Below are positions 997-24,497 of a DNA stretch of 24,497 nt, in pieces. Each line of letters opens with the position of its first letter. The stretch's first letter is position 1. The stretch is from a virus. The position numbers and the translations under genes were made by a program. The DNA lies in the IMG/VR virus record IMGVR_UViG_3300030012_003086, positions 1 through 24,497 of that record; one strand, 5' to 3'. The notes beneath the pieces are model-generated. The model searched no databases, was not told where the DNA came from, and was given only the letters and a program-made list of their open reading frames with translations.

Positions 997-1646
997 AACA
1001 TCCCCCTAATTTTTTTGGCTATTGTAACACAATCAGTAAACATTTCATGGTGAGTAAGTTCTGACATATCTTCAACAGAAGAAAACGATGGAAGACTAGA
1101 AGCATATTGTTCTGATTCTGTATATTTGGAAGGCCTGCAAAAAAACTTAAAGAATACAAAATTGTCTTTATCCAAATCATCTAAAGTGGTTCTTGCTACA
1201 AATCCATAATCATCATATCTAGTTTTACTAGTATATTTTATTTCTTTGTTTGGACCTAAATTTAATGGGCCTCTTATATCTCTTTTAGATATAGCAGCAC
1301 CTAACGCTTCCTTCATCTTTTCATTGAACATACAGATTTCATCTTCTGGGAATTTATCTATATCTCCAACATCAATTTCAATAGTAACGGCACTTCTAGT
1401 AAACCTATCTTTGCTAGATTTGAAAGGTATTCTTTTATCTATCCATCCGCCACTGTCATATTCATCTGTAAAATTAAGATTAGAAACACTATTAAGAGAA
1501 GAAAGGTATTGATGAACTGCCCTTAATTTCTTTTTACAATCTTCTTCTTCTTGTTCTGAATCGGGAACCATCTCTTCATCCCAATCAAGATTAATCATTT
1601 CTCTAGAGGCTTGTCTAGTTTCTTTGATTATGTTCCACCACCACAT
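993..1646 (-). CDS. Tagged tandem-paralog protein, subfamily 1
   Basis: This 217-residue protein begins MWWWNIIKETRQASRE followed by INLDWDEEMVPD and an acidic stretch, then CKKKLRAVHQYLSS. It is the longer subfamily type: the mid-region carries FPEDEICMFNEKMKEAL (about residues 99-115), matching FSNEEVCTFNEYLKQA and FTEEAACVWLAEFKKV in the genes at 2106 and 2675. The C-terminus is KKIRGML; the codons for RGM (AGG GGG ATG) also form the SD of the next gene, whose ATG overlaps the stop. Its own ATG follows GGAGGTAATCAA, encoded by the C-terminal LDWR codons of the upstream gene. Function unknown; no membrane segment or catalytic motif seen. Confidence 0.87.
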   Translation of the reverse strand: MWWWNIIKETRQASREMINLDWDEEMVPDSEQEEEDCKKKLRAVHQYLSSLNSVSNLNFTDEYDSGGWIDKRIPFKSSKDRFTRSAVTIEIDVGDIDKFPEDEICMFNEKMKEALGAAISKRDIRGPLNLGPNKEIKYTSKTRYDDYGFVARTTLDDLDKDNFVFFKFFCRPSKYTESEQYASSLPSFSSVEDMSELTHHEMFTDCVTIAKKIRGML

Positions 1647-1650
1647 TTGA

Positions 1651-2109
1651 TTACCTCCAATCTAATTCTTTAGGGTCATTTTTACTACTGTATTTGGGGG
1701 TAGTTGTTCCAAAATAAATAGTTTTGTTGCCTGCACCTCTCTTAAAAATAACAAAGAGAAAACTTCTTTCATTCCAAACCATTTGTATTGTATATCCTTC
1801 AAAATCATGAATTATTGAATCAGTTATTATTCTAAGTCTTTCATCCCTAGATGAGTATGGGGTTGTAAATTCGGCATCTGCAATCATCTCTAAAGATTTA
1901 CATGCCACACTTTCCGGCAAATCTTTAATTTTCCAACTGTGAAAATCAGAAAAATAATATTTATGTTGTGTTACCTTTTCATACATTTGTTTTAATCTCT
2001 TAATGCAACTGTCTTCTTCTGCTTCCGGTTGAATTTCTTCATCCCAATCTAAGTTTATCAACTGTCTAGAAGTTTGCTTAGATTCTTTAAGGATATCAAA
2101 CCACATCAT
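1651..2109 (-). CDS. Tagged tandem-paralog protein, subfamily 2
   Basis: The 152-residue product starts MMWFDILKESKQTSRQ, continues LINLDWDEEIQPEAEED, and then CIKRLKQMYEKVTQHKYYF. The LPESVACKSLEMI helix corresponds to PEEVAC and PEAVAC in its closest siblings (496-996 and 3991-4419). The C-terminal half is beta-rich and it ends PKELDWR; TGG AGG TAA at the stop doubles as the SD of the next gene 5 bases away. The start overlaps the upstream stop in an ATGA arrangement, so translation is probably coupled. Function unknown. Confidence 0.87.
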   Translation of the reverse strand: MMWFDILKESKQTSRQLINLDWDEEIQPEAEEDSCIKRLKQMYEKVTQHKYYFSDFHSWKIKDLPESVACKSLEMIADAEFTTPYSSRDERLRIITDSIIHDFEGYTIQMVWNERSFLFVIFKRGAGNKTIYFGTTTPKYSSKNDPKELDWR

Positions 2110-2678
2110 AACATCCCCTTAATTTTTGTAACTAGAGAAACTATTTCATCAGAAATCGTGTCATATTCTTTTCTAAAAGGAAAATATGCTATGTTAAACT
2201 CTAAACTAAAAAAAGAATCTTCTTTCGCAATATACGAAACATCACCATTAAAACCAAGTTTATTAGGAGCGTGGTGAACTCTCGCATAAGAGTGGCCCTT
2301 TTCGTAATTACGCGTAGGAATACGTTCTTTTAGGTCTTTTCCATCAATAATTGCTTGACAGGCCTGTTTTAAATATTCATTAAATGTGCAAACTTCTTCG
2401 TTGGAAAACTTATCAAGAAATCGAAGATGAATAAATATTTGAAACTTAGGACTAAGTCCCGGTTCAAAATTATTAACGAATCTAGTAAGAGAACGTTGTC
2501 CATTATCGTTAGTTTCATTAAACTTAATATCATTAGAAGAACGAATATACTCATAAACTGAAAGAAGTTTCTTTTTACAGTCTTCTTCCTCTTGCATTGG
2601 GACTGCTTCTTCTTCCCAATCTAAGTTTATCATTTCCTTAAACTGTTGTTGGGCTTTAATGATATCCCACCACATCAT
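2106..2678 (-). CDS. Tagged tandem-paralog protein, subfamily 1
   Basis: This is a 190-residue paralog beginning MMWWDIIKAQQQFKEM, then INLDWEEEAVPMQEEED and CKKKLLSVYEYIRSSNDI. Mid-protein it has FSNEEVCTFNEYLKQACQ. It ends VTKIKGML, close to KKIRGML and EKVRGMI in its siblings; this tail contains AAGGGGATG, the SD of the following gene. The tag helix is slightly divergent (AQQQ instead of K-x-K-Q). The start overlaps the stop of the 2675-3286 gene. Function unknown, with no recognisable enzyme motif. Confidence 0.87.
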   Translation of the reverse strand: MMWWDIIKAQQQFKEMINLDWEEEAVPMQEEEDCKKKLLSVYEYIRSSNDIKFNETNDNGQRSLTRFVNNFEPGLSPKFQIFIHLRFLDKFSNEEVCTFNEYLKQACQAIIDGKDLKERIPTRNYEKGHSYARVHHAPNKLGFNGDVSYIAKEDSFFSLEFNIAYFPFRKEYDTISDEIVSLVTKIKGML

Positions 2679-3286
2679 ATCATACCCCTAACTTTTTCTA
2701 AAAAGGCCCTAATGCCGTCTTCTTCAATAGCAGGGGGATAAGGCATCCAATACATACTTATAGAAAATCTAGTATTATTCCCAACTGATGCTCCTGCATC
2801 TAATATTTTTGCACTAAGCATGTGCTGAGTGCCCTTTAGTCTTCCCATTGTTCCTCGACTACTATTTGAGTAAATATCAAATTCGCCTGCGTTTACTCTG
2901 TTACTTGAATTAGGAAGTTCATTTACAGGAGTATCTAAGTGACTAATAGCATGGTCTAATACCTTCTTAAATTCTGCTAACCAAACACATGCTGCTTCTT
3001 CAGTAAAAGAATTCATTCCTCGATGAAATGCAGTAATGTAAAGTGACATGTAAGGGTCTTGTCTTCGACCATGAATATAGTGTTGACCGAAGGCTTCTCC
3101 ATTATCTAAATTAACCGCTTGATATTCAAAAGGCAAATCCTTGCTAGTTTTTAGAAAATCAAATAATTTCTGTAATCTATCTTTACACTTTTCATCTTCT
3201 TCTTCGGGTATTTGTTCTTCATCCCAATCTAGGTTAATTACTTCCTTAGAAGTCTGCTTAATATTTTTCAAAATATCCCACCACAT
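2675..3286 (-). CDS. Tagged tandem-paralog protein, subfamily 1
   Basis: The 203-residue product begins MWWDILKNIKQTSKEV followed by INLDWDEEQIPEEED and CKDRLQKLFDFLKTSKDL. FTEEAACVWLAEFKKVLDHAI corresponds to the conserved E-E-x-C helix of this subfamily. The last residues EKVRGMI carry the next gene's SD (AGGGG). Unlike its neighbours it has no visible SD: the ATG lies only a few bases after the stop of the upstream gene, so it probably depends on coupled reinitiation. Function unknown. Confidence 0.87.
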   Translation of the reverse strand: MWWDILKNIKQTSKEVINLDWDEEQIPEEEDEKCKDRLQKLFDFLKTSKDLPFEYQAVNLDNGEAFGQHYIHGRRQDPYMSLYITAFHRGMNSFTEEAACVWLAEFKKVLDHAISHLDTPVNELPNSSNRVNAGEFDIYSNSSRGTMGRLKGTQHMLSAKILDAGASVGNNTRFSISMYWMPYPPAIEEDGIRAFLEKVRGMI

Positions 3287-3290
3287 ATTA

Positions 3291-3989
3291 TCAAATCCAA
3301 TATTCTGTTTCTATTATTTCTTTGAGTTGTTCAAGGTCTTTTTCTAGCATCACCGGGCTGCCGTTGATTTCGAGTTTAGTAAACCAATAATACCACTGTT
3401 TAGAAAGAGCGTCAATACAGTAGTCTTCTAAATTGGGGTTATTGACATGGTTAATAAGTTCTTTTAAAAATTTACACATTCTTCTCATCCATAGATTTCT
3501 TCCGCCCACAAATCTTCCAACAAATGCTAAAATTTCTTTTGTATTTCCTTTGATTATTCCTATCTCCATTTCGGGTTCACATCTAGCCCATGTTCTAGTA
3601 AGGCCCGAATTCATCAAATATTCAACAGGTCCGAAGCGGTCCTTCACAATAGAAATAAATATATCAAACCAACCTGTTCCTACTTTACTTGGCGTTAATT
3701 CAAAACTAATACTACCGGTAATATCGCCTTTATAATCTATATCTCCATCTGGACCACCTTGCTGAAATTTTTGCTTAATTAAACAAGCCAATTCATTAGA
3801 AATTTTATTTATTGTTGGCCCCTGAATACGATGTGTAACTAAATCCTCATACTTCAATATAATATTATGATATTCCACAAGCCACTTTAAACAGTCTTCA
3901 TCTTCTATGGAAATTGCTTCTTCATCCCAATCTAAATTTACTAATTGCCTAGAGGACTGTTTAGTGTTTTTAACGATATTCCACCACAT
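3291..3989 (-). CDS. Tagged tandem-paralog protein, longest member
   Basis: The chosen start is the ATG at 3989, giving 232 residues beginning MWWNIVKNTKQSSRQ. An in-frame ATG further upstream exists, but the 3989 ATG sits right behind GGAGGTAAC and matches the family N-terminus exactly. The tag is followed by VNLDWDEEAISIEDED and CLKWLVEYHNII, then ISNELACLIKQKF, the family helix. The C-terminal two thirds are unlike the other members, with a Trp- and Arg-rich stretch (GGRNLWMRRMCKFLKEL) and an acidic end. It is a fusion of the shared N-terminal part with a distinct larger domain that I do not recognise. Confidence 0.85.
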   Translation of the reverse strand: MWWNIVKNTKQSSRQLVNLDWDEEAISIEDEDCLKWLVEYHNIILKYEDLVTHRIQGPTINKISNELACLIKQKFQQGGPDGDIDYKGDITGSISFELTPSKVGTGWFDIFISIVKDRFGPVEYLMNSGLTRTWARCEPEMEIGIIKGNTKEILAFVGRFVGGRNLWMRRMCKFLKELINHVNNPNLEDYCIDALSKQWYYWFTKLEINGSPVMLEKDLEQLKEIIETEYWI

Positions 3990-3990
3990 G

Positions 3991-4419
3991 TTACCTCCAA
4001 TCCAATTCTTCAAGTGTGTATTTTTCGTCTTTATTATAGGCATATATTCCAAGCACAGTCCCATGATGGAACGCTTTTTCTCGGAAAATAGTAATACCGA
4101 AACCGGTTATATCATACATAGATACAATGTAATACCCATCTATGAAATCAGACAAGGAAGTGGTATCTTTTCCTAATTGTCTGATAAAGTCTAAAGCCCT
4201 ACATGCCACCGCTTCCGGCATTTCTTTTATCATAGGGTTAGTAAATCTAGTTTCTGTTTCTTTAATAACAGGATGATTTTTTGCTTTCTCAACCACCCTT
4301 CTTAATTCCTTAATGCAGGTATCTTTATCCTTTTCCGGTAATTGTTCTTCATCCCAATTCAAATTCACTATCTCTCTAGAAGTAGTCTTAGACTCCTTCA
4401 AAATAGAACGCCAAGACAA
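3991..4419 (-). CDS. Tagged tandem-paralog protein, TTG start
   Basis: This 142-residue protein begins with a TTG codon at 4419, preceded by AAGGTGATG as SD. The non-ATG start is supported by homology: it places Trp at position 3 (MSWRSILKESKTTSRE) exactly as in the other tagged proteins. It continues IVNLNWDEEQLPEKDKD, CIKELRRVVEKAKNHP and MPEAVACRALDFI, so it is a full subfamily 2 member. It ends EELDWR; the TGGAGGTAA at its stop is the SD for the next gene. It is the first (most upstream) member of the run of seven paralogs. Function unknown. Confidence 0.85.
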   Translation of the reverse strand: MSWRSILKESKTTSREIVNLNWDEEQLPEKDKDTCIKELRRVVEKAKNHPVIKETETRFTNPMIKEMPEAVACRALDFIRQLGKDTTSLSDFIDGYYIVSMYDITGFGITIFREKAFHHGTVLGIYAYNKDEKYTLEELDWR

Positions 4420-6845: not shown

Positions 6846-7085
6846 ATGAGAAGAGCACAAAAAAACGGTATTCTGAAAGTAAAGCATAACAATTATCTTC
6901 AAAAAGAAAGAAGAAAAATACTCATAGCGCATAGGCTTCTAATTAGAAAAGAATGGGCAAAGGTTGATTGGTCGGGCAATCAAGAAGAGGCTTTAGCAAA
7001 GTTCAAGGGATATTACCCAATATCTGCCATTAAAAAGGCAGCCAAAATTAAGTGTGGGCCTCGACTACGCTCCTTATGGGAGTGA
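6846..7085 (+). CDS. Small basic hypothetical protein (79 aa)
   Basis: The ATG at 6846 is chosen because CAGGTGG lies 6 bases upstream; an in-frame GTG at 6837 is inside that SD. The protein begins MRRAQKNGILKVKHNNYLQK and is strongly basic over its first 45 residues (KERRKILIAHRLLIRKEWAK). The second half contains FKGYYPISAIKKAAK and ends RLRSLWE. The helical, basic make-up suggests nucleic-acid binding. It is a single-gene unit convergent with the minus-strand pair at 7172-7732. No family recognised. Confidence 0.7.
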   Translation: MRRAQKNGILKVKHNNYLQKERRKILIAHRLLIRKEWAKVDWSGNQEEALAKFKGYYPISAIKKAAKIKCGPRLRSLWE

Positions 7086-7113
7086 TAGTTGGGGTCTTCC
7101 TTGCTTATCAGCC

Positions 7114-7155
7114 CAAAGTGAATCAATACCATATGGTAGTGCTTTGCTGCTAACC
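7114..7155 (+). repeat. CCATATGG-centred repeat, copy 2 (degenerate)
   Basis: CAAAG (7114-7118), ACCATATGGT (7128-7137) and CTTTG (7142-7146) are present in the usual order. The flanking stems are weak: only GGTAG with CTAACC and a GC-TTT-GC core are seen. It lies between the 3' ends of two convergent genes. Confidence 0.6.
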
Positions 7156-7166
7156 CAAGAGTGGGC

Positions 7167-7196
7167 TTGGCTCAAGTTTTGAAACTCTTGAGCCAA
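7167..7196 (-). terminator. Hairpin across the 3' end of 7172-7390
   Basis: A perfect 10-bp inverted repeat TTGGCTCAAG (7167-7176) and CTTGAGCCAA (7187-7196) with a 10-base loop spans the last codons and stop of the minus-strand gene. There is no strong U-run, so it could act as a terminator or as an mRNA 3'-end stabiliser. Confidence 0.5.
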
Positions 7197-7390
7197 ACCC
7201 TGTCATTAGGCCATACTTGTAGGCCAACACTTCTTATAGCCAGCCAATAAGCGTATTTTTTCTCGTTATTGTCTTCTTCATCAATAAGATTAAGTAAAAT
7301 ATTAATTGCTTCTTTGAGGTCCGGTTCGATTACCGATTCAATCATTAACTCATTTATTCTATCTATTCTTTCATCCAAATTACTTATCAT
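7172..7390 (-). CDS. Small acidic protein, partial relative of second paralog family
   Basis: This 72-residue protein starts at an ATG behind AAGGAGATGATTAA, a strong SD that overlaps the end of the upstream gene at 7403. It has DLKEAINILLNLIDEEDNNE and then KYAYWLAIRSVGLQVWP. The second part resembles RDTYWGAIRNLGKKYADFP in the 9582-10091 protein and GEWDTIRNNGKYFDDFP in the 7914-8471 protein. It therefore looks like a short version of that family, keeping only the N-terminal half. It is probably co-transcribed with 7403-7732. Function unknown. Confidence 0.75.
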   Translation of the reverse strand: MISNLDERIDRINELMIESVIEPDLKEAINILLNLIDEEDNNEKKYAYWLAIRSVGLQVWPNDRVWLKSFKT

Positions 7391-7402
7391 TTAATCATCT
7401 CC

Positions 7403-7732
7403 TTAATTCCAACTATACATCGAATAAAAACTATGCCATTTTGGTATTTCTGTCGTTACGCCTGTCCAATAGTCTCCATTTAAAAACCACATATATTGGC
7501 GTTGTTGAATTCTTACCTTTGGTAATGCATTAAGTCGGCTTTTGGTTGTTGCAGTAGTCCATCCACAAGATGAAATAAATAGTCTGTTTTCGTTTGTAAT
7601 AAAAGCGATACAATTCCCATGTAGTAACATCTCTCTTGAACCGTCCTCATATACATTTACTTTGGTATTACCTCGATTAAATCGGTTTCCGTGTAATAGT
7701 GCTTGTGCTGCGTCTCTGCTTATCTTTGACAT
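7403..7732 (-). CDS. Conserved phage-type hypothetical protein
   Basis: The 109-residue product has the pattern of a small protein family I have seen in many tailed phages: an N-terminal helix (MSKISRDAAQALLHGNRF) and then SGNTKV-like beta strands, here NRGNTKVNVYEDGSREMLLH. LHGNCIAFI and a GW-x-T-x-T-T-K-S-R-L-N-A-L-P segment follow, then IQQRQYMWFLNGDYW near the C-terminus. The family function is not known to me. No SD is visible before the ATG. It heads a two-gene minus-strand unit, and repeat copy 3 lies 46 bases upstream of its start. Its presence is one of the better signs that the element is a virus. Confidence 0.85.
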   Translation of the reverse strand: MSKISRDAAQALLHGNRFNRGNTKVNVYEDGSREMLLHGNCIAFITNENRLFISSCGWTTATTKSRLNALPKVRIQQRQYMWFLNGDYWTGVTTEIPKWHSFYSMYSWN

Positions 7733-9508: not shown

Positions 9509-9581
9509 CTATACTCCCCAAAGGCATATTATTGCGTCGGGAGAATAGTTAGACGCACTTAACTCACAGTAGGTGATTAAG

Positions 9582-10091
9582 ATGAAGTTAGAAAATTGGA
9601 ACATAAACGCTGCACAGGTTAGCCTGTGGTTGAAGAAAGAAGATAGGCCTGTTAACCCTGCAATTGAACTATCAATTATGCTAGGTAACGATGCCGAGAA
9701 TGACGATGAAAGAGACACTTATTGGGGTGCTATCAGAAATCTAGGTAAGAAATACGCAGATTTCCCGATGGCCCGCCGAGGCAGAGAATCGGACATCCCA
9801 CAAGAAGTAGTCCTCAATGCTACTTCTGTGAAGAACACAGTAATAGATGCCTTTGCCGGTATTTCTGACGCTGATGTTATTCTGTCCGTTATCCTGCCAC
9901 ATGGCCGAACCGGCGGAGCATATGCCTCTATTGAAGATTTGGCTCAAGATATGGGCGACAAAGCATACCGCACATTGCTTAAGGCTTACAATGCAAAGCC
10001 TGAGCAAAGATGGGATGGCTCAATGGATGGCAATGTGCCATTAATGACCCCGCCACCGGTCAAACAAAAAGGAGGCGACGAGGAAGAGTGA
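9582..10091 (+). CDS. Second-family paralog (P2), 169 aa
   Basis: The start is the ATG at 9582, 5 bases after AGGTGA; an in-frame GTG at 9573 is part of that SD, and MKLENWN then aligns with MKLANFN of the 7914-8471 protein. Shared blocks are the acidic ERDTYWGAIRNLGKKYADFP (residues about 46-65), a Gly-rich PHGRTGGAYASIEDLAQ (about 108-124), RWDGSMDGN near the end (RAYSTGVWDGN in the 10834 protein) and a TPPPVKQKGGDEEE tail. No enzymatic motif is visible. Single-gene unit; function unknown. Confidence 0.83.
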   Translation: MKLENWNINAAQVSLWLKKEDRPVNPAIELSIMLGNDAENDDERDTYWGAIRNLGKKYADFPMARRGRESDIPQEVVLNATSVKNTVIDAFAGISDADVILSVILPHGRTGGAYASIEDLAQDMGDKAYRTLLKAYNAKPEQRWDGSMDGNVPLMTPPPVKQKGGDEEE

Positions 10092-10788: not shown

Positions 10789-10833
10789 GCAATTTTGCCA
10801 AAAGTGGCAAGCAAAAAATAGGGAGTGAAAAAT

Positions 10834-11310
10834 ATGAATGATGAAGAATGGAATTTGGTAAGAGGACAGGTTGTTGAATATCTAGCAGCCGACGATAGTC
10901 TCAATGATTCGTTGAGGCAAATTGTCAATTTGAATTTGCAGATTGGTGATGGCGACGCTGAAGAAAGAGATGCAGTTTTGGGAGCATTGAAGTCTATCCT
11001 AAAAGGAAGACTAGGTTCACCTTTCGGAAAGAGAGGAAGCAAATCAACAGTGCCAGCACATGTTAGAGTTTCAATTGATACAGTAGGAAATCATGTAAGA
11101 GCAGCCGCTATTGCATATTTCAACAGTAGTCCATACATGCCTTTGATTATTAAAAGACACAGTAAATCCGGTGGAGGCCTTTTCGAGAATGCTGAAGATT
11201 ATGCTGATGTTATTGAAAAGCGTGAAAGGTCCAAACTACAAAGGGCTTATTCTACAGGCGTATGGGATGGAAATCTAGAGAATCTAGGTCCATCTGATGA
11301 AGAAGAGTGA
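10834..11310 (+). CDS. Second-family paralog (P3), 158 aa
   Basis: The ATG at 10834 follows GGGAGTGAAAAAT; an in-frame GTG at 10825 lies in the SD. The protein begins MNDEEWNLVRGQVVEYLAAD. It shares with the 9582-10091 product the acidic AEERDAVLGALKSILKGRL block, the basic RGSKSTVPAHVRVSIDTVGNH region (RGRESDIPQEVVLNATSVKN there), SKSGGGLFENAEDYAD, and an end with YSTGVWDGNLENLG and DEEE. It is transcribed alone, from a promoter block also present before the ubiquitin-like gene, and is closed by a strong hairpin. Function unknown. Confidence 0.83.
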   Translation: MNDEEWNLVRGQVVEYLAADDSLNDSLRQIVNLNLQIGDGDAEERDAVLGALKSILKGRLGSPFGKRGSKSTVPAHVRVSIDTVGNHVRAAAIAYFNSSPYMPLIIKRHSKSGGGLFENAEDYADVIEKRERSKLQRAYSTGVWDGNLENLGPSDEEE

Positions 11311-16301: not shown

Positions 16302-16596
16302 TAAGTGCGAAGGTAAATTATGGTATTTAGTTCCTAATCATCAACATGATGTAATGGAAAGAATAGAATGCTTGGATTGTATTTCTGAAATGCAATATCA
16401 AGATGATGTAAAAGAAAGATTAAGCAAACTATTAGTGAATGCTAGTCATCAAAAACTAGCACAAATTGTTGCTGAATTGGCAGTAAACGGTATCTGTAAA
16501 GATGATAATGATAATATCACTAGATTTGAAACAGTTATTGCTACTAAGAATTTAGCAGAAGCACTAATGTTAGCAACAGTATATGCAGGTGTATAA
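16291..16596 (+). CDS. Small zinc-finger protein (101 aa)
   Basis: It begins MSCDKCEGKLWYLVPNHQHD and has IECLDCISEMQY around residues 26-37, so two CxxC pairs (3/6 and 28/31) form an N-terminal zinc ribbon. It is followed by a helical domain (VKERLSKLLVNASHQKLAQI, VAELAVNGI, ATKNLAEALMLATVYAGV). The start overlaps the previous gene by 11 bases. It is possibly a small transcription or DNA-binding regulator, by domain layout only. Confidence 0.78.
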   Translation: MSCDKCEGKLWYLVPNHQHDVMERIECLDCISEMQYQDDVKERLSKLLVNASHQKLAQIVAELAVNGICKDDNDNITRFETVIATKNLAEALMLATVYAGV

Positions 16597-16597
16597 T

Positions 16598-16849
16598 ATG
16601 AAACAAACAGTAGAATTTAGAATAATAAATACAAGTGAAATGCCTCCAATAGTTATTTCACAGAACGAAAATGACGAACCAAAAGTGGTATTAAACGAAT
16701 ACCACAAAATTTGGATTAGTTTAAACAGAAAGGTGATTGCCGGTATCATTGAGAATCTTCAAGAGAAGATGGATATGCTCTTGACCGGCTATCTGAAAGA
16801 ACAAAGAGCGTTTGAAAAGGAAGACTTGAGAATGATGGAGGACATCTGA
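16598..16849 (+). CDS. Hypothetical protein (83 aa)
   Basis: The ATG at 16598 follows CAGGTGTATA, whose GGTG is the SD; an in-frame GTG sits upstream in the previous gene. The sequence MKQTVEFRIINTSEMPPIVI then has a beta-like first half and a helical second half (RKVIAGIIENLQEKMDMLLT, LKEQRAFEKEDLRMMEDI). No known family. It is the last gene of the operon before the separate promoter at 16853. Confidence 0.72.
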   Translation: MKQTVEFRIINTSEMPPIVISQNENDEPKVVLNEYHKIWISLNRKVIAGIIENLQEKMDMLLTGYLKEQRAFEKEDLRMMEDI

Positions 16850-16904: not shown

Positions 16905-17114
16905 ATGATTACAGTAAGAATAATGAATGAAACAGGACACACAGAACTGATGCTAGATAGTGCTTCTAGCATTATTGAACAGATTGATACCCATCCGACC
17001 CATTGGTGCTTTATCAATGGTGAAATGGTGGCTAGAGAAGATATTTCAGCAGTTAATTGGGATGACGTTACCTCAGTGGACTTAACCCCTGCTATTGTTG
17101 GAGGAAGCCTTTGA
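16905..17114 (+). CDS. Ubiquitin/ThiS/MoaD-like beta-grasp protein with C-terminal GG-SL
   Basis: The ATG at 16905 (behind GAGTGAT) gives 69 residues that read like the sulfur-carrier/ubiquitin fold: strand ITVRIMNETG, strand TELMLD, helix SSIIEQIDTH, strand HWCFINGEMV (as in the N-G/N-Q strand of ThiS and MoaD), D-D-V turn (53-55) and last strand SVDLTPAIVGG. Gly66-Gly67 match the reactive Gly-Gly of this superfamily, but Ser68-Leu69 follow, so a protease would have to trim the tail before activation. An E1-like enzyme (22784-23344) and a JAB protease (24095-end) are encoded on the same strand. It has its own promoter and terminator, suggesting high or timed expression. A plain ThiS/MoaD sulfur carrier is the alternative. 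Confidence 0.8.
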   Translation: MITVRIMNETGHTELMLDSASSIIEQIDTHPTHWCFINGEMVAREDISAVNWDDVTSVDLTPAIVGGSL

Positions 17115-17142
17115 TTTAGGCTATCTTCTTTCACCCTCTTGG

Positions 17143-17194
17143 GGGGAGTGATTTCGGCTTTTCTTATCTCTCCGAAATTGCTCTCCCCTTTTTT
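17143..17194 (+). terminator. Strong terminator after the ubiquitin-like gene
   Basis: GGGGAGTGATTTCGG (17143-17157) pairs with CCGAAATTGCTCTCCCC (17172-17188), with a small internal bulge, followed directly by six T. This isolates the 16905 gene from the downstream RNR operon. Confidence 0.78.
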
Positions 17195-17199
17195 CAGTG

Positions 17200-17586
17200 A
17201 TGTTAAGCGATTTACTGAATTTTATCCCCGAAGAGGGATTCAAAATATATCTTACAGAAATTAAAGGATGGACTAATTTTAGTCCTTTAGTTAAAGACGG
17301 TTTAGCCGTCATTAAACCCGATTTTTATCCTAGTAATTATGTTATTGCTAGGGGCAAAAATGGATATATTTATGCGTATGGCGACACTCGCATAGAATAC
17401 CGTGATGAAGAATATTCTTCACCGCAGGAATTACTTAAAAAACATGGTGAAAAAGCAATGACTGAATTCAAGAATTGGGTATTTCTTGAAGAAAAAGAAT
17501 GGGTTGTAACTAAAACAGGTTTAGATTGGCAATTTTCCTTTACGACCTTAGATAAATGGCCTAAAAGAACAAAATACAGGTGTTAA
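17200..17586 (+). CDS. Hypothetical protein (128 aa)
   Basis: The ATG at 17200 lies just after the terminator T-run and has no clear SD; an in-frame GTG precedes it. The protein begins MLSDLLNFIPEEGFKIYLTE and is mixed: VKDGLAVIKPDFYPSNYVIA, NGYIYAYGDTRIEYRDEEY and a helix QELLKKHGEKAMTEFKNW, then an aromatic C-terminus ending KYRC. It is adjacent to RNR (2-base gap) and likely co-transcribed. I do not recognise the fold. Confidence 0.75.
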   Translation: MLSDLLNFIPEEGFKIYLTEIKGWTNFSPLVKDGLAVIKPDFYPSNYVIARGKNGYIYAYGDTRIEYRDEEYSSPQELLKKHGEKAMTEFKNWVFLEEKEWVVTKTGLDWQFSFTTLDKWPKRTKYRC

Positions 17587-17588
17587 AG

Positions 17589-19448
17589 ATGAACCAAAAC
17601 AAGAAGATATTATCGGATATTACAGTGCATATGAAATACGCTAAATATATTCCCGAAAAGATGAGAAGAGAAACATGGGAAGAAATTTGTGAAAGAAATA
17701 TGCAGATGCATATTAAAACATATCCACAACTAGAACAAGAAATTAAAGAAGTTTACACTCACTTTGTAATACCAAAGAAAGTATTACCATCAATGCGTTC
17801 AATGCAATTTGCAGGTAAACCTATTGGATTAAGCCCTAATAGAGTTTACAATTGTGCATATTTACCAATAGATTCACATGTAGCGTTTAGTGAATCTATG
17901 TTTTTATTATTAGGAGGAACAGGAGTCGGTTATTCTGTTCAAAGACATCACATTGAAAATTTAAGTGCGATTCATCATCCTAATCCTAACCGACAAAGAA
18001 GATATTTAATTGCTGATTCTATTGAAGGATGGGCTGATTCCATTAAAATTCTAATGGAATGTTATACAGGTGTTAGGACATCGACCCCTATATTTGACTA
18101 TTCAGATATTAGAGAAAAAGGTGCAAGATTAATTACAAGTGGCGGAAAAGCACCGGGGCCACAACCACTAAGAGAATGTTTAGTAAAGATAGAAGGTATC
18201 TTACAGACCATAGATAATAATAGCAAACTAACTTCTATTCAAGCACATGATATAATGTGCCATATTGCTGATGCAGTATTAAGTGGCGGAATTAGAAGGG
18301 CTGCTATGATTAGTTTATTCTCAGCAGATGACCATGAAATGATTGCTTGTAAATCCGGTAATTGGTGGGAGACAAATCCGCAAAGAGGTAGAGCAAACAA
18401 TTCAGCAGTATTACTTCGACATAGAATAACTAAGGAGTTTTTCATGGGATTGTGGGAAAGAATACAGGCTTCCGGTAGTGGTGAACCCGGTATTTACTTC
18501 AACAATGACAAAGATTGGGGAACAAACCCATGTTGTGAAATAGCACTAAGACCATTTCAATTTTGTAATCTTACAGAAGTAAATGCTTCTGATGTAAAAG
18601 ACCAAGCCGATTTAGAACAGAGAGTAAGTGCTGCTTCTTTCTTAGGAACATTACAAGCAGGCTATACCGATTTCCACTATCTTAGGGAAATATGGAGAAA
18701 GAACACAGAAAAGGATGCTCTATTAGGTGTATCTATGACAGGTATCGCTTCTAATATTGTTGAACATCTAGATTTAGAAATGGCAGCAATAGAGGTCAAA
18801 AGAGAAAATAAAAGAGTAGCAGAATTAATTGGAATAAAACCTGCTGCTAGAACAACCTGCGTAAAGCCTGCTGGAACTACTTCTCTTGTATTAGGAACAA
18901 GTAGTGGTATTCATGCATGGCATCATCCTTATTATATTCGTAGATTAAGAGTAGGAAAGAACGAAGCCATCTACAATTATCTTTTAGAGAATCATTCTGA
19001 ATTAGTCGAAGATGAATTTTTTAATCCTACTGCTCAAGCAGTGATTTCAGTTCCACAAAAAGCACCTGAAAATGCTATTGTGAGAAGTGAATCAGTATTT
19101 GATTTATTAGAACGAGTAAAGAACTTCAGCATTCGTTGGGTAAGAACAGGTCACACTGATGGGTTAAATACACATAATGTTTCAGCAACCATTTCTATAA
19201 AAGAAAATGAGTGGGATGAAGTCGGAGATTGGTTATGGAGAAATAGACACTATTACAACGGCCTATCTGTTTTACCTTATGATGGAGGAACATATACTCA
19301 AGCACCGTTCGAGAATAGCGATAAAGATACATATCGTTATTTGACTGAATCATTAACTAATGTTGATTTAAGTCAAATTATTGAATCTCAAGATAATACT
19401 GACCTAAAGGGCGAATTGGCTTGTGCAGGTGGACAGTGCGAAATTTAA
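17589..19448 (+). CDS. Class II (adenosylcobalamin-dependent) ribonucleotide reductase
   Basis: This enzyme reduces ribonucleotides to deoxyribonucleotides for DNA synthesis, using a B12-derived radical. The start at 17589 (AGGTG SD; GTG at 17580 rejected) gives 619 residues. Landmarks match monomeric class II enzymes such as Lactobacillus RTPR: Cys89 (VYNCAYLP) and Cys326 (FQFCNLTEVN) as the buried redox pair, Cys315 and Glu317 in NPCCEI as the thiyl and catalytic residues, PAGTTSLVLGTSSGIH mid-way, and the C-terminal Cys612-x4-Cys617 pair that passes electrons. The spacing Cys315 to Cys326 equals that in RTPR. The usual NPCGE is NPCCE here. At 619 residues it is shorter than RTPR (739). Confidence 0.95.
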   Translation: MNQNKKILSDITVHMKYAKYIPEKMRRETWEEICERNMQMHIKTYPQLEQEIKEVYTHFVIPKKVLPSMRSMQFAGKPIGLSPNRVYNCAYLPIDSHVAFSESMFLLLGGTGVGYSVQRHHIENLSAIHHPNPNRQRRYLIADSIEGWADSIKILMECYTGVRTSTPIFDYSDIREKGARLITSGGKAPGPQPLRECLVKIEGILQTIDNNSKLTSIQAHDIMCHIADAVLSGGIRRAAMISLFSADDHEMIACKSGNWWETNPQRGRANNSAVLLRHRITKEFFMGLWERIQASGSGEPGIYFNNDKDWGTNPCCEIALRPFQFCNLTEVNASDVKDQADLEQRVSAASFLGTLQAGYTDFHYLREIWRKNTEKDALLGVSMTGIASNIVEHLDLEMAAIEVKRENKRVAELIGIKPAARTTCVKPAGTTSLVLGTSSGIHAWHHPYYIRRLRVGKNEAIYNYLLENHSELVEDEFFNPTAQAVISVPQKAPENAIVRSESVFDLLERVKNFSIRWVRTGHTDGLNTHNVSATISIKENEWDEVGDWLWRNRHYYNGLSVLPYDGGTYTQAPFENSDKDTYRYLTESLTNVDLSQIIESQDNTDLKGELACAGGQCEI

Positions 19449-19457
19449 GGTGATTTA

Positions 19458-19817
19458 ATGGCCGAGGTTGCGCTATTAGCGAGACATAACTCTAGAATAT
19501 ACAAAGACTATGAAGAGTGTTTATTGAACTCAATTTGTATTTCTAGGCTACTTTCTCTTAAGAATCAAATCAAACTGAAACATGCTATTTCAGTGTGTGA
19601 TTCTTTAGATGAAGAAGCAGAGAAAAAATTTAGGTTAGTTACAACTCTATTGAATGCGCTTTGGGATATTCCCGAAGCAGTAGATAAAGGGTTCCATGTC
19701 TATTTAAGAGAGCAACAAGAATACAACCGATTAATGTTAGGCTACCACAAAAAAAATTGTGAAAGTCATTGTAATATCTGTTCTTTTCTCAAAGAAAGAG
19801 TGGATTTTTTATGTTAG
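19458..19817 (+). CDS. Hypothetical protein with C-terminal Cys cluster (119 aa)
   Basis: The ATG follows AGGTGATTTA. The first 90 residues are helical (ECLLNSICISRLLSLKNQIK, AEKKFRLVTTLLNALWDIPE). The end holds HKKNCESHCNICSFLKE and a last Cys, a His/Cys cluster that could bind zinc. No enzymatic motif. It lies directly behind the RNR gene, but nothing in the sequence ties it to nucleotide metabolism. Confidence 0.75.
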   Translation: MAEVALLARHNSRIYKDYEECLLNSICISRLLSLKNQIKLKHAISVCDSLDEEAEKKFRLVTTLLNALWDIPEAVDKGFHVYLREQQEYNRLMLGYHKKNCESHCNICSFLKERVDFLC

Positions 19818-19825
19818 GTGATTAA

Positions 19826-19987
19826 ATGAAAGAAAAGAATCCTGAATATGTTAAGAATAAAAGAAAGAATAAGAATACTGCGACCCGTTGCAGGGTCTGT
19901 GGAGGGCAATTGTTAATTGCCGAAGAAATAAATAAAGAAATACACGAAAGATGTGATATTGATAATACTAATATGTATATGATGTGA
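19826..19987 (+). CDS. Tiny CxxC protein (53 aa)
   Basis: An ATG after AGGTGATTAA opens a 53-residue frame: MKEKNPEYVKNKRKNKNTAT, then RCRVCGGQLLIAEEINKEI, HERCDIDNTN and a Met-rich end. CRVCGG and HERC can form a single small zinc site. The SD is identical in style to the genes around it. Real but unassigned. Confidence 0.72.
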   Translation: MKEKNPEYVKNKRKNKNTATRCRVCGGQLLIAEEINKEIHERCDIDNTNMYMM

Positions 19988-19991
19988 TAAT

Positions 19992-21218
19992 ATGGAAAGA
20001 ACAATACAAATAAGAAAACCAAATGATTCTCATGAAAATTGGAAGACCAAAATAAAAATTGAAGGTGTAAATATTACTAATTTAGATATATCTAACCAAA
20101 TTTCTTATGTAAGAACCGCTAAAGACCCGGTTCATCAAGGAATAGTTAATTGGTGGAAAAATCTGTTTAGCAATCGAGGTTCAAGATATTACGGCAGACT
20201 TCCTAAAGAATATGAAATGGTAATTACTATTCAGAAATTACCTATCGTTATCTCTAAGAATAAAACTAGGTATTCTATCAATGGTCAAACTGAATCCGCT
20301 AATACTATTCATAATGTATTAGCAAGAGTGCTTTACAAAAGTATCTTTACTCAAGATGCAGCACAGTTAATGAAATCCATGATGGATTATCTAGCGACTC
20401 CTGAAGAAGTTAAATATTGTTTAGAAAATAGATTACCCTATCATTTCTTTGATGATTTTGATAAAAAGGATTGCAGACTGAATATTATGCAAATAGGCAA
20501 AGAAGAATGTGCAATTGAATTGAGTGATGGTCTTTGGGGCACATTAAGAAATAAAGAATTAATTCATCTATATTCTTTCTATGCTCTAAATAAGAAAAGA
20601 AACACAAAATGGTCTTTCGTTTCACCTCAGAGGTTATTTGAATATACTGTTGGAAGAAAGCCTTCAGAAGCAGAAAGTGTCCTAATGATTGAATTTTTAC
20701 AACAGAATAGAACAAGAGATATTGTTGAAAAGCGGGCATTACAATTAGTAAATGATTTGTTAGCACAACATGGTGAAAGACTGAGAGCAGTTTGGTCAGG
20801 CAAGAATTTACAGACGCTATTCGTAAAAGGTAAGGATTACGATTGGAAATTAGTTTCCGACCCATATAAGAGTAACATACAGATGGTTTCCACATATGTT
20901 TGGCAACCCAGATTTTCCGATTACGACTATGCAGAAGTTCTTGGTAAATATTTGAAAAAACTAAAAGAAACTGAAGATTGGAACTCTAAAAATCCTGAGA
21001 AAGCAAAGACTCTTCCCGAAAGACCTACCAATGAATATTGTTGGAGAGGACCGATATGTATAGATAATATGGCTCCCGATTCTCCAATAGGCGACCAATT
21101 TGGGGCTAGAGCATTAGCGTTACTGAACGACACAATGACAATAAAAATAGTAAATACAATCAAGAGATACTTGACGAATAAAAATGTAAATAGGATTGAT
21201 TTGAATGAAATGCGATGA
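19992..21218 (+). CDS. Hypothetical protein (408 aa)
   Basis: This is the second largest protein of the operon. It begins MERTIQIRKPNDSHENWKTK, has beta-rich N-terminal strands (YEMVITIQKLPIVIS), a helical middle with ANTIHNVLARVLYKS and LMKSMMDYLATPEEV, then LSDGLWGTLRNKEL and WSFVSPQRLFEYTVGRKPSE plus IEFLQQNRTRDIVEKRALQL. The C-terminal part has NEYCWRGPICIDNMAPDSP and GDQFGARALALLNDTM. The pattern feels like a conserved viral protein, but I cannot name it. It overlaps TFB by 14 bases, so a link with transcription is possible but unproven. No E2-like or protease motif is evident. Confidence 0.82.
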   Translation: MERTIQIRKPNDSHENWKTKIKIEGVNITNLDISNQISYVRTAKDPVHQGIVNWWKNLFSNRGSRYYGRLPKEYEMVITIQKLPIVISKNKTRYSINGQTESANTIHNVLARVLYKSIFTQDAAQLMKSMMDYLATPEEVKYCLENRLPYHFFDDFDKKDCRLNIMQIGKEECAIELSDGLWGTLRNKELIHLYSFYALNKKRNTKWSFVSPQRLFEYTVGRKPSEAESVLMIEFLQQNRTRDIVEKRALQLVNDLLAQHGERLRAVWSGKNLQTLFVKGKDYDWKLVSDPYKSNIQMVSTYVWQPRFSDYDYAEVLGKYLKKLKETEDWNSKNPEKAKTLPERPTNEYCWRGPICIDNMAPDSPIGDQFGARALALLNDTMTIKIVNTIKRYLTNKNVNRIDLNEMR

Positions 21219-22059
21219 ATGTAATAGCACAGATAATTATTTTGATGAGCGAATGGGAGAACGTATTTGTTCTAATTGTGGTCTAGTTTTAGTCACTGAG
21301 TCATTTGAAGAAACAACTCACATATTGAATTCAGCAGGTGAAGTGGTTCATTCAAGCGATAATAATAGACTAGGTTCTGTTGTTACCGGTAAAGGTTCTT
21401 ACAAATTCAACAAGTTTGGAAAGAATAGTGTTATGCCAAAAAATATCCAAAATGGAATAATGCATTGTAACATGACTCTTAGTGCAGTAGCACCTCAAAT
21501 TGATGTAAAGGACAGAATAGAACGTGTCTATATTGAATTACAAAGAGCAAACATCATGACATCATATCCTTATGAAGTTAGAGCAGCAGCAATAGTCCAT
21601 TATGTTCTAAGAGAGAATGGCACACCCCATACTTACAACGAAGTAATAAAGGAATATGAATGTAACAGAAAAAAGGTTTCTAGATTATCTAGAAAAATAA
21701 ATCAATTTTATGGCAATAGAGTCATAAGACAAGAAAATCCTTCATTTAGTTTGCTTAAAACATTAAATCTAATTACTAATGATTTGTTGTTTCATAATCA
21801 GGCTAGAAAGGTATTAGCATTATTAGAACCAATAGTCGCTAAATCAGATTATAATAAAGGCAGAGCATATTATTCAGCAATATGTTGGATAGCAAGTAAT
21901 GTATTTGTTAGAAACGATATTACTTCTGTATTAATCTCAGAAGTAACAGAATTTACTCGATGGAATATCCACAAAGAAACTAAATTATTAGTTGGTTTGT
22001 TAGGATTCGATTCAGTTAAAGAATTAAAAGGAAAAGATATAAACAAAATAGGTGAATAA
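21205..22059 (+). CDS. tfb: Transcription initiation factor B (TFB/TFIIB homolog)
   Basis: TFB recruits archaeal RNA polymerase to TATA/TBP promoters. The 284-residue protein has the classic order: zinc ribbon with Cys3, Cys6, Cys22 and Cys25 (NCGLVLV follows), a B-reader/linker region (residues about 35-75, NSAGEVVHSSDNNRLGS), and two cyclin-like repeats (about 95-175, RIERVYIELQRANIMTSYPY; about 185-275, LNLITNDLLFHNQARK). Each repeat ends in a helix-turn-helix-like segment (ITSVLISEVTEFTRWNIHKE in the second). Its length is near normal for archaeal TFB (about 300). It could steer host polymerase to viral promoters, such as the duplicated block at 10761 and 16853. Confidence 0.93.
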   Translation: MKCDECNSTDNYFDERMGERICSNCGLVLVTESFEETTHILNSAGEVVHSSDNNRLGSVVTGKGSYKFNKFGKNSVMPKNIQNGIMHCNMTLSAVAPQIDVKDRIERVYIELQRANIMTSYPYEVRAAAIVHYVLRENGTPHTYNEVIKEYECNRKKVSRLSRKINQFYGNRVIRQENPSFSLLKTLNLITNDLLFHNQARKVLALLEPIVAKSDYNKGRAYYSAICWIASNVFVRNDITSVLISEVTEFTRWNIHKETKLLVGLLGFDSVKELKGKDINKIGE

Positions 22060-22060
22060 A

Positions 22061-22300
22061 ATGAATTTAGATGGAATGGAAACAAGAAAGGGACAGTGTG
22101 CATATTGTAGCAACGATATGGTAACTAGATGTGATAAAACAGATTTACGGATATGCAGAAAACATGCTTGTGTAATACCGGTATCAGAAAAGATTAGTCC
22201 TTCTTTAATACAAGTTGTAGCAAAGAAACATGTCCCAAAGAAGCACACAGATAAGTTAGAAGAATTGGCAAAAAGGCGTGGTGTTAAGTTTGACTTTTGA
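22061..22300 (+). CDS. Small zinc-finger protein (79 aa)
   Basis: The ATG at 22061 follows TAGGTGAATAAA. The product starts MNLDGMETRKGQCAYCSNDM, then CDKTDLRICRKHACVIPVS, and ends in a basic helix EELAKRRGVKFDF. Four or five Cys plus His form a likely zinc site, followed by a lysine-rich region. It lies directly behind TFB and may act in transcription, but that is inferred from position. Confidence 0.77.
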   Translation: MNLDGMETRKGQCAYCSNDMVTRCDKTDLRICRKHACVIPVSEKISPSLIQVVAKKHVPKKHTDKLEELAKRRGVKFDF

Positions 22301-22619
22301 AAAGGAATGGAATAAACTTTCAAAGCGCATTTACAAAATATCTCTTAAGAATGGTTTTTGGAAAGAAGATGGAAGAAATGATGGTGAAGCGATTGCTCTA
22401 ATTCATTCAGAAATTAGTGAAGCATTAGAAGCCATGAGAGATGGTAATCCTATATCTAACAAGATAATGGATTACAACAAAGTCGAAGAAGAATTAGCAG
22501 ACGCAGTAATTCGCATAATGGATTATGCTTTTGGTAAGGATTTAGATGTCGCAGGAGCAGTATTAGCGAAGATAGAATATAATAAGAACCGTGAATTTTT
22601 ACACGGAAAGAAATTTTGA
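22278..22619 (+). CDS. MazG-like nucleoside triphosphate pyrophosphohydrolase
   Basis: This alpha-helical NTP pyrophosphatase has the family signature: LIHSEISEALEAM (Glu45-x2-Glu48) and EEELADAVIRIMDYA (Glu72-x2-Asp75), which bind the Mg ions that hydrolyse NTPs to NMP and PPi. The start is uncertain: GTG at 22278 (113 residues) or GTG at 22281, both overlapping the previous gene; a TTG at 22290 is also possible. It is compact, as in many phage MazG proteins. Such proteins are thought to adjust nucleotide pools or (p)ppGpp during infection; here it sits in the same operon as RNR. Confidence 0.87.
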   Translation: MVLSLTFEKEWNKLSKRIYKISLKNGFWKEDGRNDGEAIALIHSEISEALEAMRDGNPISNKIMDYNKVEEELADAVIRIMDYAFGKDLDVAGAVLAKIEYNKNREFLHGKKF

Positions 22620-22628
22620 AGTGATATT

Positions 22629-22772
22629 ATGCATAAGTTACATAAAGAATATTTAATTGAGTGGGCATCACAATATATTGATGATGTTACTGATTTAGAA
22701 ATAAAAGATGATGTAATTCATCTTTATGTTAGTGGTAAAAGGACAGGTATTATTACCTATCAGAAATTATGA
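22629..22772 (+). CDS. Tiny hypothetical protein (47 aa)
   Basis: The ATG at 22629, a few bases after GAAGTGAT, opens a 47-residue frame. MHKLHKEYLIEWASQYIDDV gives an N-terminal helix, then TDLEIKDDVIHLYVSGKRTG and IITYQKL a beta hairpin. It fills the gap between MazG and the E1-like gene; the next SD (GAGGTGAAAA) starts at its stop codon. Unassigned. Confidence 0.65.
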   Translation: MHKLHKEYLIEWASQYIDDVTDLEIKDDVIHLYVSGKRTGIITYQKL

Positions 22773-22783
22773 GGTGAAAAATA

Positions 22784-23344
22784 ATGAGAAAAATATTGAT
22801 AATAGGAGTAGGCGGAATTGGGTCATTTTTGGTTCAGTTTTTAGATAAAGTAAAACTGTATGATATAACGGTAGCAGACCCCGATAAAGTGGAAGAGAAG
22901 AATATACCCTATCAAAACTTTGGCAATAGTCATATTGGGCATAACAAAGCATCAGTTATGAACAATACTTACTATAAGTCTGTTAATAAGGCAATCCAAT
23001 TTCCTATTCTGAGTGAACAACAAATGAAAGGATATGATTTGGTTATCTGTTGTGTTGATAATTTAGGTGTCAGAAAGACCTTGTATAACACAAGTCTTAA
23101 ATGGCTCGATTTACGAGCACAAGGCAGAAATGCGGCACTTGTGTCACATAAGGCGGAAGCAAACATGTATGATACATTATTAGCAGGACCGGATGGTTCC
23201 TTTAGTTGTCAAGGAGATTCTTGGGATGGAACAAATAAAGGTGTTCAATTTATGCAAATAGCAATTGCAGGAGTTGGCGCACAATGGGTTCAAAGATATT
23301 TCAACGATGAAGAAGTTAAAGATTTCATGGTGATGAACGTATGA
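22784..23344 (+). CDS. E1/ThiF-like ubiquitin-family adenylating enzyme (minimal)
   Basis: The family activates a Gly-Gly protein by adenylating its C-terminus with ATP. The 186-residue product shows the Rossmann start GVGGIG (8-13), ITVADPDKVEEKN (28-40, with Asp32 and Asp34 binding ATP/Mg), NIPYQ (40-44) and HNKASVM (Lys55). ICCVDN (88-93) with Arg97 and a possible catalytic Cys142 in SFSCQGD follow. The usual N-x-x-R-Q arginine is a Tyr (Tyr43), there are no CxxC zinc pairs, and it is shorter than ThiF or MoeB (about 250), so it is a minimal or diverged form. The SD is GAGGTGAAAAATA. Likely partner: the ubiquitin-like protein at 16905. Confidence 0.88.
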   Translation: MRKILIIGVGGIGSFLVQFLDKVKLYDITVADPDKVEEKNIPYQNFGNSHIGHNKASVMNNTYYKSVNKAIQFPILSEQQMKGYDLVICCVDNLGVRKTLYNTSLKWLDLRAQGRNAALVSHKAEANMYDTLLAGPDGSFSCQGDSWDGTNKGVQFMQIAIAGVGAQWVQRYFNDEEVKDFMVMNV

Positions 23345-23571
23345 ATGATGAAATAGATTATTGGTTTGATAGTGATGATATAGGCGATATTATTAATTTT
23401 AATAATAGAGATGGGTCTATTCAAGATGAAAGAGTAGTGATGGTATATTGTTCAATATGCGGCTCTAGATTTACCGGCCCCATTGTTGGTGCTGGTAAAT
23501 TTTTATTAGCACACGAAGCCTTTCATAAGTGGGAATATAGTATAGAACAAAATAAAGAGATGGTGGCTTAA
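23341..23571 (+). CDS. Small Cys2His2 zinc-finger protein (76 aa)
   Basis: The product starts MNDEIDYWFDSDDIGDIINF and contains CSICGSRFTGPIVGAGKF, then LLAHEAFHKWEYS, giving C-x2-C-x17-H-x3-H, a Cys2His2-like zinc finger, with an acidic N-terminus. It overlaps the E1-like gene by 4 bases and the next gene begins directly after its stop. A role as adaptor or substrate-binding partner of the E1/JAB pair is possible but unsupported. Confidence 0.77.
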   Translation: MNDEIDYWFDSDDIGDIINFNNRDGSIQDERVVMVYCSICGSRFTGPIVGAGKFLLAHEAFHKWEYSIEQNKEMVA

Positions 23572-24093
23572 ATGGTTAAAACATGCAGATGGAGTAAAAT
23601 AGAAGAAAATAGATTAATGGAACTTGTAAGGGATGAAGTATCTTGGTTAGATATTTCAGAAGAATTACAGAGAAGTATTCCTGCATCTAAGAAAAGATTC
23701 AAGATGCTTGATGAGGCTAAATTAGAAAAAATAGAGAAAGCAGGCGGCAATAAAGAATTTATTCCAATAAATAATAATAGTTGGGATGCTGAGAAAGACT
23801 TTGATTTATTGGTTAATTTCTATGAATTGAGTATAGATGAAGCAAAAGAAAGATTCGGTTTATCCTACGGAGAAATAGCAGGTCGTCTAGAATATCTTAT
23901 CGAAAGCACAGAACCTGCCCATATTTCGATGCTTATGGAAGCGTCTAAGGCTATCCGGTCTAAGAAGATACACAAGAGCGTTTTAGCGAATAACTCGCCA
24001 AGCATTCAACGTAAACTAAAGAAAATAGATAAACTATCTAAAAAGATAGACAAGTTACATCTATCTATTCTTGAAGAATTAGGAGAGGAATAA
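23572..24093 (+). CDS. Myb/SANT-like DNA-binding protein with coiled coil
   Basis: The 173-residue protein begins MVKTCRWSKIEENRLMELVR, then WLDISEELQRSIPASKKRFK, the Trp-rich three-helix pattern of a Myb/SANT-like domain (residues about 6-45). A second similar repeat follows (SWDAEKDFDLLVNFYELSID, FGLSYGEIAGRLEYL, about 69-108). The C-terminus (about 140-173) is a lysine-leucine coiled coil. It is likely a sequence-specific regulator or genome-organising protein. It lies between the E1-like/zinc-finger genes and the JAB gene. Confidence 0.72.
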   Translation: MVKTCRWSKIEENRLMELVRDEVSWLDISEELQRSIPASKKRFKMLDEAKLEKIEKAGGNKEFIPINNNSWDAEKDFDLLVNFYELSIDEAKERFGLSYGEIAGRLEYLIESTEPAHISMLMEASKAIRSKKIHKSVLANNSPSIQRKLKKIDKLSKKIDKLHLSILEELGEE

Positions 24094-24094
24094 A

Positions 24095-24497
24095 ATGGGA
24101 AGATTGAAAGATAAGTATTTTGATGAAATTAACAATGATGATGATAGCGGCTATGAGGAATTCAAAGCCCTTGAAGAAGCAAGAGACAGAGCAGAGCAAC
24201 ATATTCTGAATGTTTGGGTTGAAGAGGCTAATTTAACTCTTGAATCTATTGGTCTTTCTTGGAAAGATAGACATGAGGTTGATGAATTAGCATACACATC
24301 CATCACATTTCATAATGCAATTTGGCATGCTTCCACAGAAATTCTTCCTAATCTAGAAGTGCAGGTAGTAATTGATAGCCAAAACAATTGTTATGTTACT
24401 ACCGGTTCTCCCGGATATGTTGAGTTTGGTATGCAACCTCCAATAGGAATGAAATTACCTATCAGATGTTGGATTCATACACATCCATTTGGTTCCG
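24095..24497 (+). CDS. JAB/MPN-type metalloprotease (partial at window end)
   Basis: The ATG at 24095 follows GGAGAGGAATAAA. The 134 visible residues are helical at the N-terminus, acidic up to about residue 35, then beta-rich (LEVQVVIDSQNNCYVTTG, LPIRCWIHTHPFGS). H-x-H-P (His128, His130, Pro131) is the zinc-binding start of the JAMM motif; the expected downstream Ser and Asp lie beyond the window edge. The JAMM glutamate may be Glu82 or Glu88, but I cannot tell which. JAMM proteases remove or process ubiquitin-like proteins, which suits the Gly-Gly-Ser-Leu tail of the 16905 protein. The reading frame is open at 24497. Confidence 0.87.
   Translation, partial: MGRLKDKYFDEINNDDDSGYEEFKALEEARDRAEQHILNVWVEEANLTLESIGLSWKDRHEVDELAYTSITFHNAIWHASTEILPNLEVQVVIDSQNNCYVTTGSPGYVEFGMQPPIGMKLPIRCWIHTHPFGS

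Follow-up and report, generated by a model that had tools for sequence, protein, structure and literature searches.

The first 24,497 bases of a 96,522-base virus record (IMG/VR record IMGVR_UViG_3300030012_003086; bases 1-24497, the whole stretch analysed, are here called the window) encode a small ubiquitin/ThiS-like modifier, a minimal E1-like adenylating enzyme and a JAB protease, together with a candidate E2-like protein termed orf408. The best explanation of these genes, held at slightly better than an even chance, is a virus-encoded, reversible ubiquitin-like conjugation system. The initial annotation of this DNA, made from the letters of the sequence, had located the modifier, the E1-like and the JAB genes on the + strand, and all three are confirmed there. 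Its interpretation is supported, and the finding is stronger than a sequence reader could know. The features of the system are as follows.

16905..17114, + strand: ubiquitin/ThiS-like modifier, 69 residues (fold model, structure matches, VGG in homologues, lysine-free)
17100..17105, + strand: codons of the invariant Gly66-Gly67 (from sequence)
17106-17111, + strand: Ser-Leu tail, presumed removed (tails of 0, 1 or 2 residues, variable in relatives)
19992..21218, + strand: orf408, candidate E2-like conjugating enzyme; C-terminal domain at about 20709-21215, invariant Cys356 at 21057-21059
22784..23344, + strand: minimal E1-like adenylating enzyme, 186 residues (Pfam ThiF E = 2.2e-14, invariant residues, Protein Data Bank (PDB) matches)
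24095..24497, continuing beyond the window, + strand: N-terminal part of a JAB/JAMM metalloprotease (invariant motif residues, PDB matches, 10-N gap)

The modifier open reading frame begins with an ATG at 16905, has its stop codon at 17112-17114 and ends in V-G-G-S-L. Comparison with Pfam, PHROGs and NCBIfam yielded nothing significant for it. Relatives were taken from two scans of IMG/VR, which yielded 86 and 179 stretches, the best 80 being used from each. All 84 distinct modifier reading frames have VGG at the end, followed by no further residue (17 sequences), one (10) or two (57), and these residues are variable; in three the preceding residue pattern differs slightly, with VGG unchanged. 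All four glycine codons are used across the 84 sequences, which points to purifying selection on Gly-Gly. The Gly-Gly is conserved in relatives, and its loss there, by which the initial annotation would have been refuted, is not seen. The statement of that annotation that two residues must be removed fits the window protein, which ends in VGG-SL, but does not stand as a general rule, given the 17 relatives that end exactly at Gly-Gly. Invariance extends to further residues, among them H30-P31-T32-H33-W34, R44 and W52.

The beta-grasp fold proposed for the 69-residue protein was borne out by modelling. An AlphaFold2 model from a 53-sequence input (pLDDT 88.6) shows a beta-grasp with a floppy tail, and the predicted elements (E2-8, E11-17, H20-28, E33-37, E40-42, H44-49, E57-62) contain the beta-beta-alpha-beta-beta arrangement of beta-grasp ubiquitin-like modifiers. 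The best PDB structure matches are, with few exceptions, ubiquitin, MoaD, ISG15, SUMO, NEDD8 and ThiS, with E values of about 0.005-0.05 and identities of roughly 5-22%. The modifier profile found chance matches only among PDB sequences, and the fold comparison alone is informative here; against ThiS and MoaD sequences the profile gave weak or insignificant matches. The window protein contains no lysine, and lysine makes up 1.1% of residues in the family versus 8.8% in the other proteins of the genome, where none of 93 other reading frames is lysine-free. This poverty fits an activated C-terminus that must not react with itself.

A pattern scan for the modifier over one genome from each of 84,980 cell species, from which distant relatives may escape, found it on only two contigs. 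Both belong to one bacterial metagenome-assembled genome, Altibacter sp. EAC109 (L114 and L115), and look like a mis-binned virus. The triad of modifier, E1 and JAB belongs to the virus and not to the cell genomes searched.

The minimal E1/ThiF-like enzyme recognized at 22784-23344 is sound: its Pfam ThiF match lies above the cut-off, and the adenylation residues of the E1/ThiF/MoeB superfamily (GxGGxG, Asp, Lys, Asp-Asn) are all present. Invariance is complete or almost complete at GxGGIG, D32, D34, N40, K55, D92-N93, R97 and C142. A 46-sequence profile matches UBA5, Cap2, the NEDD8 E1, MccB, Uba4 and MoeB in the PDB. The CxxC zinc site of E1 enzymes of the ThiF/MoeB/UbaA type is found in none of the 46 sequences, and the protein is shorter than ThiF or MoeB, which together indicate a minimal adenylation domain.

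The JAB gene runs within the window into HTHPFGS, the motif named for it in the initial annotation. The window ends at 24497 because a 10-N gap (L002:4499-4508) lies inside the gene just after that position. GTTCCG is present on both flanks of the gap, which is apparently a scaffold join and not a frameshift. Directly after it in the record the gene resumes with SAYFSGTD and completes the JAMM motif; relatives carry HTHPFG-AYFSGTD unbroken. The glutamate and HxH(x7)SxxD pattern of JAMM proteases is represented by E102, H142, H144, S152 and D155, all invariant in the relatives. PDB matches are to AMSH-like and archaeal Rpn11-like deubiquitinases, and 38 of 40 members have a match to Pfam Prok-JAB, which for one of them scores 16.4 bits, under the curated cut-off of 25 bits. 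The JAB gene is retained in all 16 loci where the modifier already ends in Gly-Gly, and trimming is therefore probably not its only job.

The order modifier, orf408, archaeal transcription factor B (TFB), E1, JAB, on one strand, is found in 78 of 78 distinct loci that have enough flanking DNA. Intervening genes are often absent: by tblastn the ribonucleotide reductase (RNR) was found in at least 39 of the 78 loci, MazG in at least 27, orf129 in at least 46 and orf173 in at least 39. Mere synteny as the cause of the constant co-occurrence is weakened, as intervening genes are gone from half of the loci. Modifier, E1 and JAB are conserved as one unit.

Although the initial annotation recognized no E2- or E3-like gene, for E2 there is a candidate within the block, orf408. 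The protein has 22 invariant positions among 63 sequences, including C356, D368, Q369, R373, N379 and D380, and Cys356 is in the context W-GPICIDN. The structural model (pLDDT 91.4) has a C-terminal part composed of a helix, four strands, the cysteine and helices, and this modelled order of elements appears to be that of E2 enzymes. About 20 of the best 50 PDB matches found by Foldseek are E2 chains, with E values of 0.7-2.7, none significant, and since they are mostly each other's close relatives they count as one resemblance. The E2 of African swine fever virus is among the structure matches in a viral library; strong structural matches are to three viral proteins only. By sequence, orf408 has no PDB match, no Pfam family and no match to a phage record at E <= 1, and the Pfam E2 family PF14460 has no match in the record. 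The chances that orf408 is an E2-like enzyme are put at about even.

Three other genes of the neighbourhood should be mentioned.

21205..22059, + strand: TFB with a Zn-ribbon (Pfam Zn_Ribbon_TF, 2.8e-7), in 78/78 loci; a possible substrate or regulator of the modifier system
16583..16849, + strand: orf88, a conserved 88-residue protein just upstream of the modifier (tblastn match in 90 loci, invariant residues)
17589..19448, + strand: class II (B12) RNR (Pfam), inside the block and dispensable

The record is magrovirus-like, and magroviruses are widespread in the ocean. It has TFB, a family B polymerase, a clamp-loader-like AAA ATPase, an ATP-dependent DNA ligase, a chaperonin and a class II RNR, and its head genes are on the strand opposite to the replication/transcription block. 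Of the Magrovirales traits, the family B polymerase, TFB, RFC, chaperonin, head genes and two opposed blocks are present. Magroviruses are tailed viruses associated with marine Poseidoniales archaea, and Magrovirales genomes are 90-110 kb (International Committee on Taxonomy of Viruses profiles PMC12999244, PMC10768690); the gene content and the 96.5-kb size of the record fit this group. No paper naming both magroviruses and ubiquitin was found in the literature searched, whose coverage did not extend to Philosof 2017 and Prabhu 2025. Elsewhere in the window, at 496-4419 on the - strand, are about seven tandem paralogues with a shared N-terminus (M-WW-I(I/L)K--RQ--NLDWDEE) and divergent bodies. 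Many proteins in the window and its relatives end in EEE (JAB, and those at 9573-10091 and 10825-11310), and the GAGGAG codons of these ends probably double as a ribosome-binding site for the next gene.

From this set of genes we infer adenylation, a thioester step, an E2 role, deconjugation and protein targets, in the following way. The JAB protease would trim the tail of 0-2 residues and expose Gly-Gly, and the minimal E1 would adenylate the C-terminal glycine of the modifier using ATP and probably hand the modifier to its cysteine C142. Cys356 of orf408 would then probably accept the modifier as an E2-like carrier and transfer it to lysines of target proteins, from which JAB may also take the tag off. 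The block sits among TFB, RNR, clamp loader, ligase and chaperonin genes, which makes early viral or host replication and transcription proteins likelier targets than virion proteins. Tagging of virions or countering of a host pathway are guesses as to role. The proposal can be extended to a complete, self-sufficient cascade of modifier, E1, a new E2 family and a JAMM deconjugase, which would belong to the magrovirus core genome, would act on viral or host transcription/replication proteins and would have no precedent among archaeal viruses; this extended form is tentative and falls short of an even chance.

Several observations weigh against conjugation. The assignment of orf408 as an E2 is weak: no match between it and an E2 has E < 0.6, the root-mean-square deviation is about 5-6 A at best, a profile comparison by HHalign with E2 sequences was insignificant, and the HPN motif before the cysteine is absent from the orf408 alignment. 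On this last point, prokaryotic E2-like families may be without HPN (PMC1779556). The E1-like protein is also shorter than known conjugation E1s, and the sequence NGEMVARE in the modifier is a ThiS-like motif of the kind found in sulfur carriers. Escherichia coli ThiS is similarly lysine-poor, and lysine poverty would therefore mark activation and not conjugation.

The main rival, which the initial annotation had also named and which is rather unlikely, is a sulfur carrier like that of QbsE-QbsC-QbsD or CysO-Mec+. Here the E1 would activate the carrier, a thiocarboxylate would be loaded, and JAB would expose Gly-Gly or free the product, with the sulfur destined for a cofactor, a tRNA or a thiolated metabolite. 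The modifier is like ThiS in motif and fold, and models of ThiF and of PRTRC ThiF are among the matches of the E1. There are known sulfur carriers in which a JAMM protease cuts off a short tail after Gly-Gly. Operons in which ThiS/MoaD, JAB and E1 genes occur with sulfur-assimilation genes have been described as well (PMC1779556). On the other hand, a Pfam scan of the larger proteins that the 96.5-kb record encodes (reading frames of about 70 residues and above) showed no rhodanese, PP-loop ATPase, ThiG, MoaE or cysteine synthase family, and such enzymes may be supplied by the host. ThiF and MoeB typically have a CxxC zinc site that is missing from this E1, and what constantly accompanies the triad is orf408 and TFB instead of sulfur enzymes.

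Less probable still, and clearly a minority view, is a module directed against the host, in which the viral modifier and E1 compete with a SAMP-like pathway of the host, or JAB reverses it, with no specific targets. The viral triad does mirror archaeal sampylation, where the E1 UbaA and JAMM proteins control TBP2 in Haloferax (PMC4895103), but merely reversing host tags needs no dedicated, highly conserved modifier and E1. It is very improbable that the 69-residue protein acts by itself, as an inhibitor or as a structural beta-grasp protein (e.g. PinA-like), with no relation to E1 and JAB. Weak Pfam matches to PinA, the T4 Lon inhibitor, occur in 29 of 53 modifier members (best E = 1.4e-4), but in the window protein the matched region is residues 7-54, which leaves out the tail with the invariant Gly-Gly, and modifier, E1 and JAB are inseparable across the 78 loci. 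The PinA similarity was set aside.

Prokaryotic ubiquitin-like systems are mostly known as defences or as part of cell housekeeping. A conjugation system in magroviruses would, if true, be an invariably present core component of viruses that rank among the most abundant in the ocean, i.e. archaeal viruses running their own protein tagging. It would also provide a testable mechanism of host takeover for uncultured viruses and bear on the origin of ubiquitin cascades. Since the proteins concerned (modifier, E1 and JAB) are of small size and can be expressed, activation and trimming are open to tests in vitro without a cultured host.

Comparison with known systems shows partial likenesses. The initial annotation had placed the triad with prokaryotic systems such as PRTRC, CBASS Cap2/Cap3 and Bil; the triad itself stands, conserved in 78 of 78 loci, whereas membership does not, and the systems are comparable only. 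PRTRC-type operons have a Ub-like protein, JAB, an E1-like protein, an E2-like protein without the classical His and an alpha-helical protein (Iyer et al. 2006, row 6d), and four functional classes are in common if orf408 is an E2. The magrovirus E1 matches the PRTRC ThiF model TIGR03736 at 47 bits versus a cut-off of 145, and for the modifier, JAB and orf408 there is no match among the PRTRC models; membership was rejected, as only the E1 matches and far under the cut-off. With CBASS Cap2/Cap3 and Bil/BUB there is resemblance of the E1 to the E1 part of Cap2 and of other E1-E2 fusions, and a JAMM deconjugase is shared. In contrast, there is no E2-E1 fusion here, no nucleotide cyclase was seen, the modifier has no match and the owner is a virus. 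Membership in CBASS and Bil was rejected since PADLOC matches only the E1 domain to parts of E1-E2 fusion models.

A close parallel is found in crAss-like phages (crAss001 gp79-gp76 and relatives), which have a homologous E1 (HHalign E 6e-17) and JAB (4e-7) and, likewise, a Ubl-like gene and a conserved-cysteine protein of about 400 residues clustered with E1-JAB among replication genes. They differ in having bacterial hosts and the gene order Ubl, gp78, JAB, E1, and their modifier and ~400-residue protein have no detectable relation to those of the magroviruses. The only annotation of these E1-JAB pairs is thiamine biosynthesis and metalloprotease; the cluster has the appearance of a PRTRC-like conjugation cassette. 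In the crAss-like loci L112, L113 and L209-L214 the ~400-residue protein has a conserved HSH and a cysteine (PCLG-GPI), and the JAB motif is HSHNNM-TFFSGTD. Two other viral loci were noted. One (L031:2552-5959) has a 75-residue Ubl-like reading frame followed by a 481-residue protein (PHHYFFNCLGQ), JAB and E1. The other, in virus Rctr197k from a DAMO enrichment (L215:3952-4350 and 7001-7624), has a ThiF-like gene and, about 2.7 kb away from it, the JAB-like motif AHTHPWNGDAWPSGTD.

QbsE/QbsC/QbsD and CysO/Mec+ have a carrier with a near-terminal Gly-Gly, an E1 and a JAMM protease, as here; the magrovirus E1 differs in lacking the zinc site, and a sulfur-using enzyme was not found among the Pfam-scanned larger proteins. 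The Haloferax SAMP/UbaA/HvJAMM system shares the archaeal setting and a Gly-Gly modifier, E1 and JAMM protease, but its E1, UbaA, is MoeB-like and of full length, and the SAMPs are cellular. To our knowledge, no E2 takes part in Haloferax sampylation. The transcription factor TBP2 is a known sampylation target in Haloferax and is regulated by it (PMC4895103), which makes TFB, the constant neighbour of the triad, an attractive candidate substrate of the viral modifier.

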